From Bacteroidales bacterium (GTDB lineage Bacteria > Bacteroidota > Bacteroidia > Bacteroidales > UBA3824): a stretch of 64,000 bases of DNA. Below the pieces are notes generated by a model. It worked only from the letters and a program-made list of their open reading frames with translations. It had not been told where the DNA came from and did not search any database. A program made the translations under genes and the position numbers. Of this stretch, positions 48,242 through 56,354 are shown one piece after another (within the stretch, counting starts at the first letter, position 1; the number at the start of each line of letters is the position of its first letter). The stretch lies in assembly GCA_016286055.1 (NCBI GenBank), contig JAEERW010000014.1, forward strand, positions 1 through 64,000. The letters are read 5' to 3'.

Positions 48242-48928
48242 TTATTCTTTTCCGTCTTTTAAGTTGATGAAGAATACACCGTTTGAACTTTGACTTCCAT
48301 AAATGGCCGCGGTACCATCTTTCAAAAGCGAAATCTCTTTAACATCGCATGTAGAAATATAGTCAATATTATCAACTTTGTTACCATCAACCACGTAAAT
48401 TGCACAGTTTGAGCCATTTATAGTGTTTAAACCGCGAACTATAATACAACCATCCGGCATAATATTTACACCCGTAAACTTAGCTTTAATCAAATCGAAA
48501 ACATCTATGTAGTTGCAATAATTATTGCCACGCTCTATATATTCAATAGCTTGTGTTCGTTGATCCGACGAAATGTAACCGTATCCTATTGCCATATCAA
48601 CGTTTTTGGTCGTGGGTATAAAATTGAGTTTAACATTGATAGGGTTAGATGTTGATTTGTTAATGCGTCGTTGGATGTTACTAAATACTTGTGACTTAAA
48701 CATAAGTCGATCTTTGGGCTTACATGCTATAACAAACCCGCCAAGCGAATCTGTTATGGTAGCGGCAAGAGATTTTTTGGCAGTTACTTTTATGCCAGAT
48801 ACTGGTAAATCATTAAGTGTCGTTACTGTGCCTGAGATAATTCTTATTTCTTGTGAACTTGCAGGCAACCAATAATTTATAAGAAATAAAATTATTAATG
48901 TTTTGATTGATTTCATTTTTTTACTCAA
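48242..48928 (-). CDS. Plug-only SusC/TonB-receptor-like mini-protein, copy 1
   Basis: The 228-aa protein has a signal peptide (SIKTLIILFLINYWLPASSQ), a carboxypeptidase-regulatory-like domain (SGTVTTLNDLPVSGIKVTAK) and a TonB plug-like domain ending CAIYVVDGNKVDNIDYIS and VKEISLLKDGTAAIYGSQSS, as at the start of SusC-type transporters. It stops before any beta-barrel. Its close paralogue at 55692-56354 lies on the other side of the trp operon. It may occupy another barrel, bind a TonB partner or be a degenerate receptor. Function unknown. Confidence 0.82.
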   Translation of the reverse strand: MSKKMKSIKTLIILFLINYWLPASSQEIRIISGTVTTLNDLPVSGIKVTAKKSLAATITDSLGGFVIACKPKDRLMFKSQVFSNIQRRINKSTSNPINVKLNFIPTTKNVDMAIGYGYISSDQRTQAIEYIERGNNYCNYIDVFDLIKAKFTGVNIMPDGCIIVRGLNTINGSNCAIYVVDGNKVDNIDYISTCDVKEISLLKDGTAAIYGSQSSNGVFFINLKDGKE

Positions 48929-49060
48929 TTTAGTTATTCGATATTGTTTTAATTATTTAATCATTTGACTTAAAAATGCACTTTTGGTTTAATTTTTTTC
49001 TAAAAAAATTTTTTTTTCTCATTTTTTATTTTTTAATTTGCCGCATAAAACAAAGCAAAA

Positions 49061-49114
49061 ATGAATTTATTTAATATGACATACGGTAATTGGTGGTGGC
49101 GCTTACGAATCTAA
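49061..49114 (+). CDS. trpL: trp leader peptide with three consecutive Trp codons
   Basis: The short frame ATG 49061 to TAA 49114 reads MNLFNMTYGNWWWRLRI (an internal ATG at 49076 is in frame). Three TGG codons at 49091-49099 are followed 61 bp later by a strong terminator in front of trpB. Ribosome stalling at these codons when tryptophan is scarce would uncover the switching segment at 49116-49125. This is the architecture of a ribosome-mediated trp attenuator. Confidence 0.9.
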   Translation: MNLFNMTYGNWWWRLRI

Positions 49115-49196
49115 AATTCGTGAGTGGTACACCTTAATATATATATTAAAGATATTAAAAAAGGCTTGTCGAAGACTCACGACAAGCCTTTTTTTT
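49102..49196 (+). promoter_or_regulatory. trp operon attenuator
   Basis: Pairing 1:2 is CTTACGAAT (49102-49110) with ATTCGTGAG (49116-49124), overlapping the leader stop codon. Antiterminator pairing is TCGTGAGT (49118-49125) with ACTCACGA (49175-49182), which covers the terminator loop and the top of its 3' arm. The terminator is AAGGCTTGTCG/CGACAAGCCTT (49161-49190) plus a T-run. 1:2 and the antiterminator exclude each other. Confidence 0.85.
49161..49196 (+). terminator. Attenuator terminator upstream of trpB
   Basis: An 11-bp perfect stem, an 8-nt loop AAGACTCA and eight consecutive T at the end (two of them in the stem). It ends 31 nt before the trpB ATG. Confidence 0.93.
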
Positions 49197-49227
49197 GTGA
49201 GTAACGAAAATAATAAAACTAAATACA

Positions 49228-50421
49228 ATGAGTAAATATCAAATTGATCAAAACGGTTATTACGGCGAGTTCGGCGGAGCGTATATTCCTGAAATACTCA
49301 GGAAAAACGTTGTGGAACTCAAAGAAAACTATCTGCAAATTATTGAAAACGAGCAGTTTAAAAAAGACTTTCAGAAACTATTGAAAGATTATGTAGGTCG
49401 CCCCACGCCGCTCTATTTCGCCAAACGCCTAAGCGAGAAATACGGTACCAACATCTTTCTCAAACGCGAAGACCTCTGCCATACGGGTGCGCACAAGTTG
49501 AACAACGCTCTCGGTCAGATTCTCCTCGCACGCAAACTCGGCAAAACCCGCATTGTGGCAGAAACAGGAGCAGGTCAGCATGGTGTTGCCACTGCCACAG
49601 TTTGCGCTCTTATGAATATGGAGTGCGTGGTGTATATGGGTGAAACGGATGTTAAGCGTCAGTTTCTCAACGTACAGCGTATGAGGATGTTGGGCGCTAA
49701 GGTTGTTCCCGTAATGTCGGGCAACAGAACCCTCAAAGACGGCACCAATGAGGCTATCCGCGACTGGTGCTGCAATCCTAAAAACACACATTATATTATA
49801 GGTTCGGTTGTTGGACCCGACCCGTATCCCGATATGGTTGCACGTTTCCAATCTGTTATTAGTGAGGAGATTAAATATCAGTTGCAGGAGCAGACTGGTC
49901 GCAACTATCCTGACAAACTGCTGGCTTGCATAGGCGGCGGCAGCAATGCGGCAGGAACTTTTTACCATTATATCGACGATGAGCGCGTTAAGTTTTTCGC
50001 AGCAGAGGCAGCGGGACTTGGTCTCGACGACCCTGAAAAATCGGCAGCCACTATCCATCTCGGCAAAAAGGGCGTTTTGCACGGAAGTCTCTCGCTCGTG
50101 ATGATGACCAACGACGGTCAGATTGTAGAGCCGTACTCAATTTCTGCTGGTCTCGATTATCCTGGTGTGGGTCCTATGCACGCATTCTTTGCTAAATGCG
50201 GACGCACCAAGGTGCTTGCCGTTACCGATGCCGAGGCTATGCAGGCAGCGATGGAACTCACTAAGTTAGAAGGTATTATCCCCGCCATTGAGAGCGCACA
50301 CGCATTGGCTATGCTCCCGAAAATCAATTTCGTAAAGGATGAGAACGTAGTAATCACTGTCTCAGGCCGTGGCGATAAGGATATGAACACATATGTTAAA
50401 TATTTTAATATGGAGGAATAA
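49228..50421 (+). CDS. trpB: Tryptophan synthase beta chain
   Basis: The 397-aa product is the PLP enzyme joining indole and serine. [13 protein letters not shown] carries the PLP lysine, [17 protein letters not shown] follows, and [13 protein letters not shown] is the phosphate-binding loop. EYGGAYIPE-type [12 protein letters not shown] at the N-terminus marks TrpB1. It is the first structural gene of trpBEGDCFA, controlled by the leader upstream. Confidence 0.98.
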
Positions 50422-50424
50422 GAA

Positions 50425-51816
50425 ATGTTCAGTTACAAAACAAATTCAAAAACAATTCTGAGCGACATCTATACGCCCGTGAGCGCATATCTTCGTCTCA
50501 GAGATTCGGGAGTGCAAAGCGCACTTATGGAGTCAAACGACTATCATTCAAAAGAAAATTCACGCTCATTTATAGGCATTTATCCCTTGGCAAGCGTGGC
50601 TATCAATCACGGAAAGGCTATCTTTAAATATCCCGACGAAAGCGTTGTTACTAAGGAGATTACAAAAAATTATAGAGTAGAGCACGCCTTGAAAGAGTTT
50701 TTGAGCAACTTCAAGGTTGAGGGCGAAAACTCAAATTATTGTGGTCTTTATGGATATACGGCTTTTAATGCTGTAAGATATTTTGAAAATATCCCCGTGG
50801 AGGATACCACAATGAAAGAAAACGATGCTCCCGATATGCTCTATGTGCTGTTTCGCACTGTGTTGGTTTTCAATCATTATCAATCGGAACTCACCATTGT
50901 GGATATGTCAGAAGATGGCGAAAACAAGGTGCACGAGGTTGAAAAACTTCTTTCGAAGGCAGGTGTGCGCAACGACGGTTTTAATGCTACTGGCGAAACC
51001 ACATCGCCCATTACCGACGAACAGCACAAAGACAATATCCGCAAGGGTATCGCACACTGCAAACGTGGCGATGTGTTTCAAATTGTTATATCGCGCAGAT
51101 TTATACAGCATTACACCGGCGACGACTTTAAACTCTATCGCGCTTTACGTTCGATTAATCCTTCGCCTTATCTTTTTTACTTTGATTTTGGTGGATTTAG
51201 AATTTTTGGTTCGTCGCCCGAAACTCACTGTCGCATTGAAAACGGAAAGGCTTACATCGACCCCATTGCCGGAACTACCAAACGCACTGGCAATCAGGAA
51301 GAAGACCTCAAAAATGCAGAGTATCTCCGTCGCGACCCAAAAGAAAATGCAGAGCACGTAATGCTTGTAGACCTTGCCCGCAACGACCTCAACCGCAACT
51401 GCGATAATGTGAAGGTTGATTTTTACAAGGATATGCAATTTTATTCGCACGTAATCCACTTGGTGAGCCGTGTAAGCGGAGACTTGCGTCCTAATGCCGA
51501 CACTATCAAAACCTTTATCGACACATTCCCCGCCGGAACTCTCAGCGGTGCGCCCAAGGTTCGCGCTATGCAGTTAATTTCTGAAATTGAGCCTCATAGC
51601 CGTGGTATTTACGGTGGTTGCATCGGATTCCTCGGTCTAAATGGTGAATTGAATCAGGCTATTACAATTCGCACTTTTGTGGCTCGAAACAACGAACTTT
51701 GGTTTCAGGCAGGCGGCGGAATCGTTGCCAAATCCGACCCTGAATACGAACTTCAAGAGGTTAACAACAAACTCGGTGCATTACGCAAGGCAGTAGTATC
51801 TGCTCAAAACATTTAA
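50425..51816 (+). CDS. trpE: Anthranilate synthase component I
   Basis: The 463-aa protein makes anthranilate from chorismate with ammonia from TrpG. The chorismate-binding domain shows FQIVISRRF, PSPYLFYFDFGGFRIFGSSPE, PIAGTTKRTGN, DLARNDLNRNC, PAGTLSGAPKVRAMQLI and GIYGGCIGFLG. The N-terminal ALMESND corresponds to the LLES tryptophan-binding motif, so feedback inhibition is likely. It starts 3 bp after trpB. Confidence 0.97.
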   Translation: MFSYKTNSKTILSDIYTPVSAYLRLRDSGVQSALMESNDYHSKENSRSFIGIYPLASVAINHGKAIFKYPDESVVTKEITKNYRVEHALKEFLSNFKVEGENSNYCGLYGYTAFNAVRYFENIPVEDTTMKENDAPDMLYVLFRTVLVFNHYQSELTIVDMSEDGENKVHEVEKLLSKAGVRNDGFNATGETTSPITDEQHKDNIRKGIAHCKRGDVFQIVISRRFIQHYTGDDFKLYRALRSINPSPYLFYFDFGGFRIFGSSPETHCRIENGKAYIDPIAGTTKRTGNQEEDLKNAEYLRRDPKENAEHVMLVDLARNDLNRNCDNVKVDFYKDMQFYSHVIHLVSRVSGDLRPNADTIKTFIDTFPAGTLSGAPKVRAMQLISEIEPHSRGIYGGCIGFLGLNGELNQAITIRTFVARNNELWFQAGGGIVAKSDPEYELQEVNNKLGALRKAVVSAQNI

Positions 51817-51826
51817 TTATTTGAAA

Positions 51827-52390
51827 ATGAAAACGATAATAATAGACAACTACGATTCTTTTACTTACAATCTTTACGGATATGTTACAAAACTCGGATT
51901 TAATTGCGAGGTAGTGCGTAACGACCAATTCAAAATCGAAGATATTGCTGATTTTGACAAGATTATTCTTTCGCCAGGTCCGGGAATACCCTCAGAATCA
52001 GGACTTTTGATGGATGTTATCAGACATTATGCCGAATCAAAACCAATTCTTGGAGTATGCCTTGGACATCAGGCAATAGGAGAGGTGTTTGGCGCTAACC
52101 TTCTAAATCTCAACGAGGTATATCACGGTGTGGCTACCAACTGCAAAATCATCGGCGACGACTATATTTTCAAAGGTCTCAATAGCGAAATTGAGGTTGG
52201 ACGCTACCACTCGTGGATTGTGGAACGCAAAAATCTTCCCGAAGATCTTGAAATAACTGCTATTAGCAACGAAGGTTCTATTATGGCTTTGAAACACAGA
52301 AAGTTGGATGTTCACGGTATTCAGTTTCATCCCGAAAGCGTGCTTACTCCAAACGGCGAAATTATTATCAGAAACTTTTTAATCAACTAA
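51827..52390 (+). CDS. trpG: Anthranilate synthase component II (glutamine amidotransferase)
   Basis: The ATG at 51827 (MKTIIIDNYDSFTYN) is preferred over the in-frame TTG at 51821 and gives 187 aa. Class I amidotransferase motifs: SPGPGIPSESG, GVCLGHQAIGE with the nucleophile cysteine, and HGIQFHPESV with the catalytic His-Glu pair. It delivers ammonia to TrpE. There is no fused phosphoribosyltransferase. Confidence 0.97.
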   Translation: MKTIIIDNYDSFTYNLYGYVTKLGFNCEVVRNDQFKIEDIADFDKIILSPGPGIPSESGLLMDVIRHYAESKPILGVCLGHQAIGEVFGANLLNLNEVYHGVATNCKIIGDDYIFKGLNSEIEVGRYHSWIVERKNLPEDLEITAISNEGSIMALKHRKLDVHGIQFHPESVLTPNGEIIIRNFLIN

Positions 52391-52392
52391 AA

Positions 52393-53388
52393 ATGAAAGA
52401 GATATTAGAAAAATTGATTTCGGGCGAAACATTTACCCGCGCCCAAATGAAAGATATATTGATTGCTATCACAGAGCAAAAATTTTCTAACGAGCAGATT
52501 GCCGGACTCTTAACAGGCATTCAGATGCGCTCTATTACCACCGACGAACTTCTTGGTCTTCGCGACGGCATATTGGCTACCGGCAAACCTGTGGATTTAT
52601 CGCCCTACAAGGTTGTTGACATTGTGGGAACAGGCGGCGACGGCAAAAATACTTTCAACATTTCTACTTGCTCGTGTTTTGTGGTTGCAGGTGCTGGCTA
52701 CAAGGTGGCAAAACACGGAAACTACTCTGCCACATCAGTTTCGGGTGCAGGCAATGTTTTGGAAGAACACGGTGTAAAATTTACCGCCGACAACGACAAA
52801 CTTAAAGAAAACATTGAAAAATGTAACTTTACCTATATGCACGCACCGCTGTTTGCATACGCTATGAAATTTGTGGCTCCGGTTCGCAAGGCTCTGCAAG
52901 TGCCCACCTGCTTTAATCTTTTGGGGCCCATCGTTAATCCCTGCCGTCCGCAGTATCAGGTGCTTGGAACTGCAACGTTAGACCAAATGCGCCTTTATCA
53001 CAGTGTGTTGCAGCAAATTAGCGAGGGATACTCGATTGTAACTTCGCTTGATGTTTACGACGAGATTTCTCTTACCAAAGATTTCAAAGTGATTTCGTCG
53101 AGTATGGAGCAGGTTTTCAGTTGTTCCGACATTGGTTTTGAGCGAATCAATCCCACCGAAATTTATGGCGGCAGCACCAAGCAAGAGGCTAAAAAGATTT
53201 TCGACGATGTTTTGAGCAACACTTCTACTGCGGCTCAGAAAAATGTGGTGCTTGCAAACTCCGCATTTTCAATCAATTGCATCTGTCCAGAGAAAAACAT
53301 CCGCGAATGTTTTTTGGAGGCGAAAGAATCGCTCGAAAGCGGCAAGGCTAAGGAAGTGCTTAATAAATATGTAGAAATGAACTCATAA
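52393..53388 (+). CDS. trpD: Anthranilate phosphoribosyltransferase
   Basis: The 331-aa enzyme attaches phosphoribose to anthranilate. The signature VDIVGTGGDGKNTFNIST binds PRPP; KHGNYSATSVSGAGNVLEEHG and MHAPLFAYAMKFVAPVRKAL (substrate site) follow, then FNLLGPIVNP. It starts 2 bp after trpG, indicating tight coupling. Confidence 0.97.
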   Translation: MKEILEKLISGETFTRAQMKDILIAITEQKFSNEQIAGLLTGIQMRSITTDELLGLRDGILATGKPVDLSPYKVVDIVGTGGDGKNTFNISTCSCFVVAGAGYKVAKHGNYSATSVSGAGNVLEEHGVKFTADNDKLKENIEKCNFTYMHAPLFAYAMKFVAPVRKALQVPTCFNLLGPIVNPCRPQYQVLGTATLDQMRLYHSVLQQISEGYSIVTSLDVYDEISLTKDFKVISSSMEQVFSCSDIGFERINPTEIYGGSTKQEAKKIFDDVLSNTSTAAQKNVVLANSAFSINCICPEKNIRECFLEAKESLESGKAKEVLNKYVEMNS

Positions 53389-53396
53389 TCAGCATT

Positions 53397-54194
53397 ATGT
53401 CAACAATTTTAGACGAAATAGTAGCCAACAAGCAAATCGAAACAGCGGAACTCAAAAAAAGTCTGCCATTGTCGGTGCTGAAAGATAAACCGCTGTTTTT
53501 GAGGAATACTTTCTCGCTTAAAGATGCTTTGAAAAATAGTTCCACTGGTATAATTTCCGAGTTTAAGCGCAAATCACCATCCAAGGGCGACATACATCAA
53601 GGTATTGAGCCAAAGGATGTTGTGCCTCTTTACGAAAAATATGGCTGCACAGGTGTTTCGTGTCTTGCCGACAATAAATATTTTGGCGGCAGTTACCAAG
53701 ATGTGATTCAGGCTCGTGCCAATTTGGAGCATACTCCGCTGCTTTTCAAAGAGTTTCTTACCGATCCTTACCAACTCTATTTGGCAAAATCGTCGGGTGC
53801 GGATGTGATATTGTTGATTGCGGCTTGTCTGCAACCGTCACAATGTCAGGAACTTGCGCTCGAAGCCAAGGAACTCGGTCTGCAAACGCTTTTGGAGATT
53901 CATTCCGAAGACGAACTATCGCATTACAACGATAGTTATATCGATATTTTGGGTGTCAACAACCGCAACTTGAAGATTTTTAAAACCGACATTGAGATTT
54001 CAAAATCAATAGTTAAGAATCTTCCCCAAGACGCGGTAAAAATCTCTGAATCAGGTATTTCAAAACCCGAAACAGTAGCCTCACTCAAAAAACTTGGTTT
54101 CAATGGCTTTCTTATGGGCGAGAACTTTATGAAGGAGCAGAATCCGGGAATTGCGCTTAAATCATTTATCGACAACGTTTTAACACTTATTTGA
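53397..54194 (+). CDS. trpC: Indole-3-glycerol phosphate synthase
   Basis: The 265-aa TIM-barrel enzyme closes the indole ring. Family motifs are ISEFKRKSPSKGDI with the catalytic lysine, GVSCLADNKYFGGSYQ, LLFKEFLTDPYQLY, LGVNNRNLKIFKTDI and ISESGISKPETVASL. It is a separate gene, not fused to trpF. Confidence 0.97.
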   Translation: MSTILDEIVANKQIETAELKKSLPLSVLKDKPLFLRNTFSLKDALKNSSTGIISEFKRKSPSKGDIHQGIEPKDVVPLYEKYGCTGVSCLADNKYFGGSYQDVIQARANLEHTPLLFKEFLTDPYQLYLAKSSGADVILLIAACLQPSQCQELALEAKELGLQTLLEIHSEDELSHYNDSYIDILGVNNRNLKIFKTDIEISKSIVKNLPQDAVKISESGISKPETVASLKKLGFNGFLMGENFMKEQNPGIALKSFIDNVLTLI

Positions 54195-54195
54195 T

Positions 54196-54807
54196 ATGTT
54201 GATTAAAATATGCGGTTTGCGCGACAATTATGCCGATGTGGTGGCTCTGAAACCCGATTTTGCAGGACTGATTTTTTATCAAAAATCTCCCCGGTTTGTG
54301 GAATTGAGCCAAGAGCCTGTGCTGAAACAGAAACTCACCGATGTTAAGAAGGTGGGTGTATTTGTCAACGCCGACAAGGATTATATTTTAGACAAAGTGT
54401 CGGAGTATAATCTTGATTTAGTGCAACTTCACGGCAACGAATCACCCGAATTATGCGCCGAGATACGCAAGAGTCTGCTCGTGATAAAAGCCTTCGGCAT
54501 TTCGTCGGAATCTGATTTACAATCGGCAGAAAAATATGCGCAATATGTTGACTATCTGCTTTTTGACACCAAAACCAAAGGTTACGGCGGTTCGGGTGTA
54601 AAATTCGACTGGCATATGTTGCAGAATGTTAACATTTCGCAGAAGTTTTTGCTCAGCGGCGGCATTTCTTTAGACGATTTAGAATATATTAAAGCATTAA
54701 AAATCAATAATTTAGTAGGTGTAGATTTAAACAGCTGTTTTGAAGATACACCCGGACTTAAAAACATCGAAAAGTTAAAACAAGCATTAAATATTTTAAG
54801 AAAATGA
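54196..54807 (+). CDS. trpF: Phosphoribosylanthranilate isomerase
   Basis: The 203-aa TIM barrel begins MLIKICGLRDNYADVV, with the catalytic cysteine in KICG. VGVFVNADKDYI, LVQLHGNESPELC, LLFDTKTKGYGGSGVKFDW and LSGGISLDDLEYI (phosphate site) follow. It starts 1 bp after trpC; its stop overlaps the trpA ATG by 4 bp. Confidence 0.96.
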   Translation: MLIKICGLRDNYADVVALKPDFAGLIFYQKSPRFVELSQEPVLKQKLTDVKKVGVFVNADKDYILDKVSEYNLDLVQLHGNESPELCAEIRKSLLVIKAFGISSESDLQSAEKYAQYVDYLLFDTKTKGYGGSGVKFDWHMLQNVNISQKFLLSGGISLDDLEYIKALKINNLVGVDLNSCFEDTPGLKNIEKLKQALNILRK

Positions 54808-55577
54808 ACAGAATAGACAGACTTTTCCAATCTGGAAAAAAAGACATATTATCAGTTTATTTTACAGCAGGTTATCCAAATTTAGACGACACTGTAAAAA
54901 TCATCAAATCACTCTCAGACCACGGTGTAGATATGATTGAAATAGGTGTTCCATTTTCCGACCCAATGGCTGACGGTCCTGTGATTCAGTCAAGCGGGCA
55001 AAAGGCATTGAGCAACGGCATGACTCAAAAAATCCTTTTTCGACAGTTAGCAGATATTCGCAAAGTAACTGATATTCCGCTGATTATGATGAGTTACATT
55101 AATACCGCTATGCAGTTTGGTTTTGAGGATTATTGCAAACAATGTGCTAATTGCGGTATTGATGGTTTAATTATCCCCGACCTTCCGTCAGAGATTTATC
55201 TATCTCAATACAAACAGTTTGTAGATGCCAACGGTTTGAATTACATTCAGTTAATCACTCCTGAGACCACTGATGAACGCATCCGCGCCATCGACGATAT
55301 GAGCAAGGGTTTTATCTATATGGTTTCGTCGGCTTCCACCACAGGAGCACAGCAGTCGTTTAACGAAGCCAAACAGCAGTATTTCAGCCATATAGAGAGT
55401 ATGAAACTCAAAAATCCTACACTCGTAGGCTTTGGCGTATCCAATAAAGAGACCTTCCGTGCCGCTGCCGACCATTCGCGTGGATGCATTATCGGTAGCG
55501 CATTTATCAAACTGTTAGGTAGTTGCAAATCTATCGACGAGGCCGTTGAGACATTGATTAAGAACATTAGCGAATAG
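54804..55577 (+). CDS. trpA: Tryptophan synthase alpha chain
   Basis: The 257-aa enzyme cleaves indole-glycerol phosphate for TrpB. MIEIGVPFSDPMADGPVIQ contains both catalytic acids, IIPDLPSEIYLSQY and LVGFGVSNKETFRAAADHSRG complete the pattern. It is the last gene of the operon, coupled to trpF, and is followed by a terminator. Confidence 0.97.
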   Translation: MNRIDRLFQSGKKDILSVYFTAGYPNLDDTVKIIKSLSDHGVDMIEIGVPFSDPMADGPVIQSSGQKALSNGMTQKILFRQLADIRKVTDIPLIMMSYINTAMQFGFEDYCKQCANCGIDGLIIPDLPSEIYLSQYKQFVDANGLNYIQLITPETTDERIRAIDDMSKGFIYMVSSASTTGAQQSFNEAKQQYFSHIESMKLKNPTLVGFGVSNKETFRAAADHSRGCIIGSAFIKLLGSCKSIDEAVETLIKNISE

Positions 55578-55617: not shown

Positions 55618-55660
55618 TATTTTTAACAAACTTACATCGATTTAAGCCATTGAAAATATG

Positions 55661-55668
55661 TAATTTTG
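55661..55668 (+). promoter_or_regulatory. -7 element of the second plug-only gene
   Basis: TAATTTTG matches TAnnTTTG, 23 bp before the ATG at 55692; it makes the upstream TTG at 55650 unlikely as a start. Confidence 0.55.
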
Positions 55669-55691
55669 TACAGTATAAATTTCAAATATTA

Positions 55692-56354
55692 ATGAATATG
55701 AAAAAGATATTTTCAGTTTTAATGATGCTTATATGGCTAGTGCCATCATACGCTCAACAGACCCGTTTAATCAATGGTAAAGTTCGTGCTTTTAATGATT
55801 TACCAGTTTCTGGCATTAAAGTAACTGCCCAACAGGCCAAATCTGCGGTAAATACAGATTCTCTTGGTAATTTTTCAATTGTTTGTTTAACAACAGATTG
55901 TATTTCAATTAGGTCGGATTGTTTCAAAAAAGTTAATATCAAAATTAATCAAAAAACAGCTGATACATTGAACATCAAACTAACTACCAAACCCACCGAA
56001 AAATCAGTAGAAATGGCTATTGGATACGGCTATTTAAAGGAAGAAGACCGTACCGCAGCTGTTGAAAGTCTCAAACGAGGTCCAGATTATAGCACATATT
56101 CAAGCGTTTACGATATTATAAAAAGTAATTTTACGGGAGTCGATGTTCGTCCTGATGGTTGCGTCATTACTCGTAGCACTGCCACAGTTTATGGAGACCC
56201 TTGCGCAACTTTTGTGGTCAATGGTTCGGTAGTTGACTCAATTGACTATCTCTCACCAAGTGACATAAAGGAAATTTCCCTTATAAAAGACGGAACTGCT
56301 GCAATTTATGGAGCACGTAGCGGCAACGGTGTGTTTATTATCAACACCCACTAA
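55692..56354 (+). CDS. Plug-only SusC/TonB-receptor-like mini-protein, copy 2
   Basis: The start is the ATG at 55692 or 55698 (MNMKKIFSVLMMLIWLVPSYAQ), giving about 220 aa. After the signal peptide come the carboxypeptidase-regulatory-like domain (INGKVRAFNDLPVSGIKVTA) and the plug-like end (CATFVVNGSVVDSIDYLSP; IKEISLIKDGTAAIYGARSG), with no barrel. It is clearly paralogous to 48242-48928. Both keep the VEMAIGYGY / VDMAIGYGY segment where SusC proteins have VVVGYG. Function unknown. Confidence 0.82.
   Translation: MNMKKIFSVLMMLIWLVPSYAQQTRLINGKVRAFNDLPVSGIKVTAQQAKSAVNTDSLGNFSIVCLTTDCISIRSDCFKKVNIKINQKTADTLNIKLTTKPTEKSVEMAIGYGYLKEEDRTAAVESLKRGPDYSTYSSVYDIIKSNFTGVDVRPDGCVITRSTATVYGDPCATFVVNGSVVDSIDYLSPSDIKEISLIKDGTAAIYGARSGNGVFIINTH

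Follow-up and report, generated by a model that had tools for sequence, protein, structure and literature searches.

Attenuation of the trp operon is best known from Escherichia coli trpL, in which a leader peptide with Trp codons is followed by a 1:2 hairpin and a terminator with a U-tract. Outside the proteobacteria, the relevant passages of Seliverstov et al. (2005; PMC1262725) predict trp attenuators in Corynebacterium and Streptomyces and describe them as classical. Similarly, passages on the ilvBNC operon of C. glutamicum (PMC11857589) describe an antiterminator that shares the first arm of the terminator. For Flavobacterium psychrophilum, passages of a further study (PMC9723704) mention "strong clues" for attenuation by leader peptides ahead of operons for amino-acid biosynthesis. 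In addition, Table 1 of Weinberg et al. (2010; PMC2864571) enters Bacteroid-trp as RNA "y" and cis-regulatory "y", in Bacteroidetes.

A leader at positions 49061-49196 was analyzed in a stretch of 64,000 nucleotides from a Bacteroidales bacterium (positions 1 to 64,000 of contig JAEERW010000014.1, assembly GCA_016286055.1), hereafter the window. It precedes a trp operon with the gene order trpB-E-G-D-C-F-A, and it is very probably a ribosome-mediated Trp attenuator whose antiterminator acts by loop capture. The leader matches Rfam family RF01692 (Bacteroid-trp) at 49041-49170 on the forward strand, with a score of 58.9 bits (cut-off 49) along the entire model (1-131). In keeping with the context of this family, it lies upstream of trp genes in Bacteroidota, and it is the only RF01692 match in its own genome. 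The leader family is already known, and the window holds the same element, yet the Rfam model ends inside the 5' arm of the terminator. Its structure contains neither the terminator nor the loop-capturing antiterminator, so the antiterminator on the loop and 3' arm is missing from it. No description of a loop-and-3'-arm antiterminator was found in the passages of open-licence literature that were searched, and its novelty in print is tentative.

Leader anatomy and the trp operon

The first gene of the operon, trpB, occupies 49228-50421 on the forward strand and matches TIGR00263 with 570.8 bits (cut-off 392.45). The genes trpE, trpG, trpD, trpC, trpF, and trpA follow at 50425-55577 on the same strand, as assigned with NCBIfam. 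At least one curated NCBIfam cut-off was passed by trpB, trpG, trpD, and trpA, while trpE, trpC, and trpF were assigned from NCBIfam best matches with scores under their own cut-offs. The TrpB of the window is 98% identical to a TrpB from a Bacteroidales MAG. The operon is flanked by two ORFs that point outward, at 48242-48928 on the reverse strand and 55650-56354 on the forward strand, and these are similar by eye (VTAKKSLAATITDSLGGF and VTAQQAKSAVNTDSLGNF).

Upstream of the leader, a possible -7 element (TTAATTTG, 49035-49042, forward strand) matches seven of the eight positions of TAnnTTTG, which we take to be the Bacteroidota -7 consensus. Among the 68 aligned leaders, 38 carry the exact motif no more than 45 nt ahead of the leader start, and none carries it in an equally long interval further up. 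A simple promoter and terminator scan by consensus returned two terminator-like matches, both on the reverse strand and one of them the leader's own inverted repeat; the leader terminator was absent from its forward-strand list.

The elements named in the original prediction were recovered, in some cases with longer stems. The 17-codon leader peptide with three consecutive Trp codons was read directly from the forward strand: the ORF (MNLFNMTYGNWWWRLRI) spans 49061-49114 with its stop codon at 49112-49114, and the TGG codons that would serve as the sensor lie at 49091-49099. A 9-bp hairpin proposed at the stop codon (49102-49110 with 49116-49124) is present within a larger predicted stem of 11 bp (49100-49110 with 49116-49126). 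This structure, referred to as hairpin 1 or the anti-antiterminator (49100-49126), carries the stop codon in its loop, and its assignment was based on the predicted fold, the counts of its core pairs over 68 leaders, and the own-versus-swapped test described below. The proposed 8-bp alternative pairing is likewise present as a perfect helix between 49118-49125 and 49175-49182, and none of 200 dinucleotide shuffles of the linker matched the loop and 3' arm as well. The former segment is the antiterminator strand (segment 2), assigned from pairing and own-versus-swapped tests, and the latter is its target, composed of five loop nucleotides and the first three nucleotides of the terminator 3' arm.

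The terminator, first described as 11 bp, lengthens to 15 bp in the predicted fold, with the 5' arm at 49157-49171, an 8-nt loop at 49172-49179, and the 3' arm at 49180-49194; both arms are also backed by pair counts. The T-run that forms the U-tract occupies 49189-49196, and its first six residues are predicted to pair with A in the stem. Direct reading confirmed that it ends 31 nt before the trpB ATG at 49228. The region 49099-49200 had a folding energy of -34.8 kcal/mol (z -7.5), which none of 200 shuffles reached. Hence, an intrinsic terminator ahead of the first structural gene and a short leader ORF containing consecutive Trp codons were found, as expected of ribosome-mediated attenuation, together with a hairpin that, judging from structure and conservation, withholds the antiterminator strand when undisturbed.

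Conservation and partner choice of the antiterminator strand

A comparison with relatives had been proposed beforehand as a check, and the Trp-Trp leader and its pairings proved to be conserved. From a TrpB search, 80 named loci were kept out of 244 relatives, identified by title as Bacteroidales or other Bacteroidota. A short ORF with Trp-Trp was found at most 320 nt upstream of trpB at 72 of these 80 loci. At six of the other eight (L017, L019, L020, L021, L023, and L025), trpB apparently lies behind the end of trpD, as judged by eye, and is thus not the first gene in its unit. The set used further consisted of 71 leaders, including that of the window, with Trp codons and a detected terminator. 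Nine rows were dropped for lacking a detected terminator, among them L066 and L089, whose leaders are visible although the terminator detector missed both, and L081 was dropped as it has no Trp-Trp codons. An alignment (A1) of 68 leaders was built without the use of structure, omitting the near-identical L018, L042, and L054.

Pair counts in this alignment support the terminator and hairpin 1, and with them the proposal of a Trp attenuator. Terminator pairs were kept in 99.1% of cells, and 10 of 11 pairs changed on both sides (5.9 in shuffles). The pairs of hairpin 1 were kept in 80.6% of cells, and six of 10 changed on both sides (5.0 in shuffles, with 118 of 500 as high); its changed cells numbered 48 against 21.7 in shuffles, a count that none of 500 reached. 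Control by TrpR, TRAP, or a T-box in place of the leader ribosome is scarcely credible given the conserved run of Trp codons; the TrpR and TRAP families had no match in the window's own genome, and no Rfam match to a T-box was found in the window.

The antiterminator helix (49118-49124 with 49176-49182) forms in 94.5% of cells over the 68 leaders, and in 17-79% when the partner is slid by one to three columns. Column shuffles already averaged 90.4%, since the columns vary little, and none of 500 reached 94.5%. Changed cells numbered 28 against 13.8, and both this count and the covariation score exceeded all 500 shuffles. No excess was observed in the pairs that change on both sides (two of seven, with 479 of 500 shuffles as high) or in the further pair types (eight, with 483 of 500 as high). 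A change from G-C to A-U, the main one, joins the middle base of the stop codon to a loop base and would require just two to three changes on the TrpB tree, where independent counts gave one to two independent pairs and no significance. Covariation of the antiterminator within this alignment is thin. When leaders were tested singly, the helix failed to exceed the 5% level of shuffles in 23 of 71.

Because there was little independent covariation on the TrpB tree, an own-versus-swapped test was applied to a widened set of leaders. A covariance model (R1) with its structure limited to hairpin 1 and the terminator was run against 395 genomes from the phylum and 393 from the order; 59 and 144 of them, respectively, had a match at E 0.001, with the window's own genome included in both counts. 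Leaders were fetched from part of these matches, and the fetched set leans to the consensus sequence that the model carries. No leader was obtained at 21 of 88 loci (67 left) or at five of 60 loci in a second batch, in which three of 58 leaders were duplicates and 55 were kept. The final set comprised 178 distinct Trp leaders, and the downstream gene was identified for a minority of the unnamed ones. Nine downstream stretches were tested, where five (L193-L197) begin a trp gene, and those of L157, L205, L230, and L248 (about 120-240 nt each) gave no match to the Trp proteins of the window. At L195, L196, and L197, which come from three further genomes of the order, two Trp attenuators stand in tandem ahead of trpE, and each has its own Trp leader and terminator. 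In L205 (genome G031), with about 240 nt downstream, a short ORF has alternating Trp codons (WRWRW) and a 9-bp match to the loop (ATGTTGTAA).

Within the window's own genome, R1 gave 11 matches up to E 5, and below E 0.05 the trpB leader alone. The ten weaker matches (E 0.05-3.2) were not accepted as leaders; seven were inspected, one of which is the same locus on the other strand.

The test compared the duplex energy of a fixed stretch past the last Trp codon with its own, or with another leader's, loop and six 3'-arm bases. Over 178 leaders, own partners were better by a mean of 2.55 kcal/mol, and no permutation out of 2000 did as well. The 55 leaders without the consensus CGTRA also favored their own partners, by 1.8 kcal/mol (0 of 2000). 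When the same comparison was made with the 5' arm, no preference was observed among the 178 leaders (861 of 2000) or those without CGTRA (346 of 2000). The original claim that the antiterminator targets the loop and the top of the 3' arm rather than the 5' arm was thus upheld. As the test ignores the tree, the controls with the 5' arm and linker, along with thinning of the set, stand in for it. Own partners remained better among 103, 45, and 19 thinned representatives (0 of 5000 each; z -12.7, -8.6, and -5.3), while the 5'-arm control gave 1568, 217, and 145 of 5000, respectively. One control with the downstream linker was low as well at 19 representatives (31 of 5000), so that the smallest set is not clean.

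Across the leaders, independent solutions to the same pairing are plain to see. For example, GTTGCCGCT matches AGCGGCGAC in L230, TTTACCGTGA with TCACGGTAAG in L245, GTGAGC with GCTCAC in L241, and TCGCTGTGA with the loop and arm TCACAGCGG in L152, where the partner was identified by eye. A congener (G016) has its trp genes, identified by 63-89% identity to the proteins of the window, split among three units (trpB, trpC-F-A, and trpE-G-D). A separate copy of the leader begins each unit, with helices of 8, 6, and 6 bp, respectively. These units correspond to L212 and L213 and lie on contig C19 at 139.8k, 145.9k, and 171.7k. Two of the copies differ, by eye, at a single pair in a compensating manner (GTGAGT with ACTCAC, and GTGAGA with TCTCAC).

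Another antiterminator of the E. coli type, on the 5' arm and with the loop match incidental, is improbable for this locus. Better pairing with the 5' arm was observed in six of 67 leaders in one batch and 13 of 55 in the other (with four of 55 tied), such as L109 (GTGAACAGC) and L110 (GGCAACCT), and the most diverged sets of 45 and 19 representatives carry a weak 5'-arm signal as well. In the window, however, the best 5'-arm helix is 4 bp, none of the 71 trpB leaders had a 5'-arm helix at p<=0.05 of shuffles, and own 5' arms were not preferred over the whole set; the classical 5'-arm antiterminator was rejected for the window on these grounds. The same procedure applied to E. coli K-12 trpL as a positive control returned the classical 5'-arm helix. 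The sample of leaders as a whole seems to hold both wirings, with single weak cases uncertain. The E. coli arrangement, with the strand past the Trp codons paired to the 5' arm of the terminator, is seen in L107, L109, L110, L112, and L150. L157 (genome G378) has a Phe- and Tyr-rich leader peptide (MKTLFAAYFYFFYFIEKVR) ahead of a terminator whose 5' arm is paired in the classical manner (GTGAACCG).

A proposed switch and its timing

Under the preferred reading, the attenuator would respond to tryptophan through the position of the leader ribosome. When charged tRNA-Trp is ample, the ribosome would reach the stop codon and hide 49118-49125, and when the leader is untranslated, hairpin 1 would lock the same strand. 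With the strand hidden or locked, the terminator would fold and transcription would end before trpB. Under a shortage of Trp-tRNA, the ribosome would wait at the three Trp codons, prevent hairpin 1, and free 49118-49125. The freed strand could then capture 49175-49182 on its exit from RNA polymerase, ahead of the remaining 3' arm, and this loop capture would block nucleation of the hairpin until the polymerase has passed the U-tract, allowing the trp genes to be transcribed.

The spacing of the leader is compatible with these positions. With an assumed footprint of about 15-16 nt beyond the first base of the P site, a ribosome at the Trp codons would reach 49103-49110, breaking hairpin 1 and sparing 49118-49125, while one at the stop codon would reach 49124-49125 and cover the antiterminator strand. 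Of the 112 leaders with a helix, 81 have the stop codon inside the antiterminator strand, where that of the window lies just upstream of the strand, and 74 end in TCG-TGA or TCG-TAA as the last codon and stop. With the same assumed footprint, at least 4 nt of the strand would be hidden by a ribosome at the stop codon in 108 of the 112 leaders, and the strand would be clear in all 112 if the last Trp codon occupied the ribosomal A site.

The order of stabilities was calculated by folding the RNA as it emerges, using equilibrium folding without pseudoknots and not measured rates. With no ribosome, hairpin 1 was calculated to hold at 0.999 and the terminator to form. With a ribosome at the stop codon (strand masked), the top of the terminator wins from 49183. 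With a ribosome at the Trp codons, the antiterminator is retained between 49179 (0.51) and 49187 (0.86) and yields to the terminator only at 49188. About 14 nt of RNA are hidden inside the polymerase, so at this point the polymerase would already be past the U-tract. The calculation was extended to 140 of the 178 leaders, chosen for a loop-side helix score of at least 13 that also beat the 5' side. In these, the terminator wins at a median of 9 exposed nucleotides of the 3' arm, instead of 4. It never wins in five of the 140, and among the 135 readable leaders the delay is at least 2 nt in 126 and under 2 nt in nine. The calculated stability of the finished terminator (-20.3 kcal/mol) far exceeds that of the antiterminator (-9.3 kcal/mol), so the switch would have to be kinetic. 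We infer that the antiterminator need only delay the terminator and not outweigh it.

The terminator base is spared by the antiterminator, so the lower stem could conceivably remain intact within a pseudoknot. In this arrangement, the strand would join 49175-49182 on top of a retained helix between 49163-49168 and 49183-49188, and the resulting shape would let the polymerase pass. The two helices occupy separate nucleotides and would stack, the bridge between them is 4-7 nt in 89 of the 112 leaders, and the lower stem by itself reaches -11.9 kcal/mol. However, the bridge length is set by the size of the loop and is thus not independent evidence, and an intact base stem beside the U-tract would be expected to terminate transcription. 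We consider the pseudoknot unlikely, if clearly less so than an antiterminator on the 5' arm. An action in trans, where the loops of released leader RNAs meet segment 2 of other transcripts, or where the pairing aids pausing or termination, appears highly improbable. While the predicted finished leader RNA leaves its loop single-stranded and complementary to segment 2, both hairpin 1 and the position of the stop codon would hide segment 2 when Trp is ample, which fits an ON signal in cis.

Comparison with known attenuators

The family membership in Rfam, the stop codon within the antiterminator strand, and the leaders that prefer the 5' arm were absent from the original prediction. For RF01692, whose model has no terminator or antiterminator, the result provides a functional model. 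It is evenly balanced, in our view, whether the trp leaders of Bacteroidota represent a second architecture of attenuation, in which a grab of the loop and 3' arm blocks nucleation, possibly as a pseudoknot, and lineages have moved between the wirings. A wiring to the loop and second arm would leave few nucleotides of transcription for the decision. The leader family offers a sharp test of whether capture of the terminator loop suffices against termination, and also a test of the coupling of transcription and translation in bacteria that initiate without Shine-Dalgarno sequences.

Among the described systems, F. psychrophilum belongs to the same phylum as the window; the passages of that study (PMC9723704) contain no trp mechanism, and the word "tryptophan" is absent from its main text. 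The predicted trp attenuators of Corynebacterium and Streptomyces and the ilvBNC leader of C. glutamicum resemble the window, in the passages describing them, in combining regulatory codons in a leader peptide with alternative hairpins, again outside the proteobacteria. E. coli trpL shares with the window the Trp-codon leader, a 1:2 hairpin over the region of the stop codon, and a terminator with a U-tract. In contrast, the antiterminator of trpL pairs with the 5' arm of the terminator, while that of the window pairs with the loop and the top of the 3' arm. Textbook attenuation is taught with a single wiring, in which the antiterminator is formed on the first arm of the terminator, and the leader family described here is wired to the loop and the second arm.
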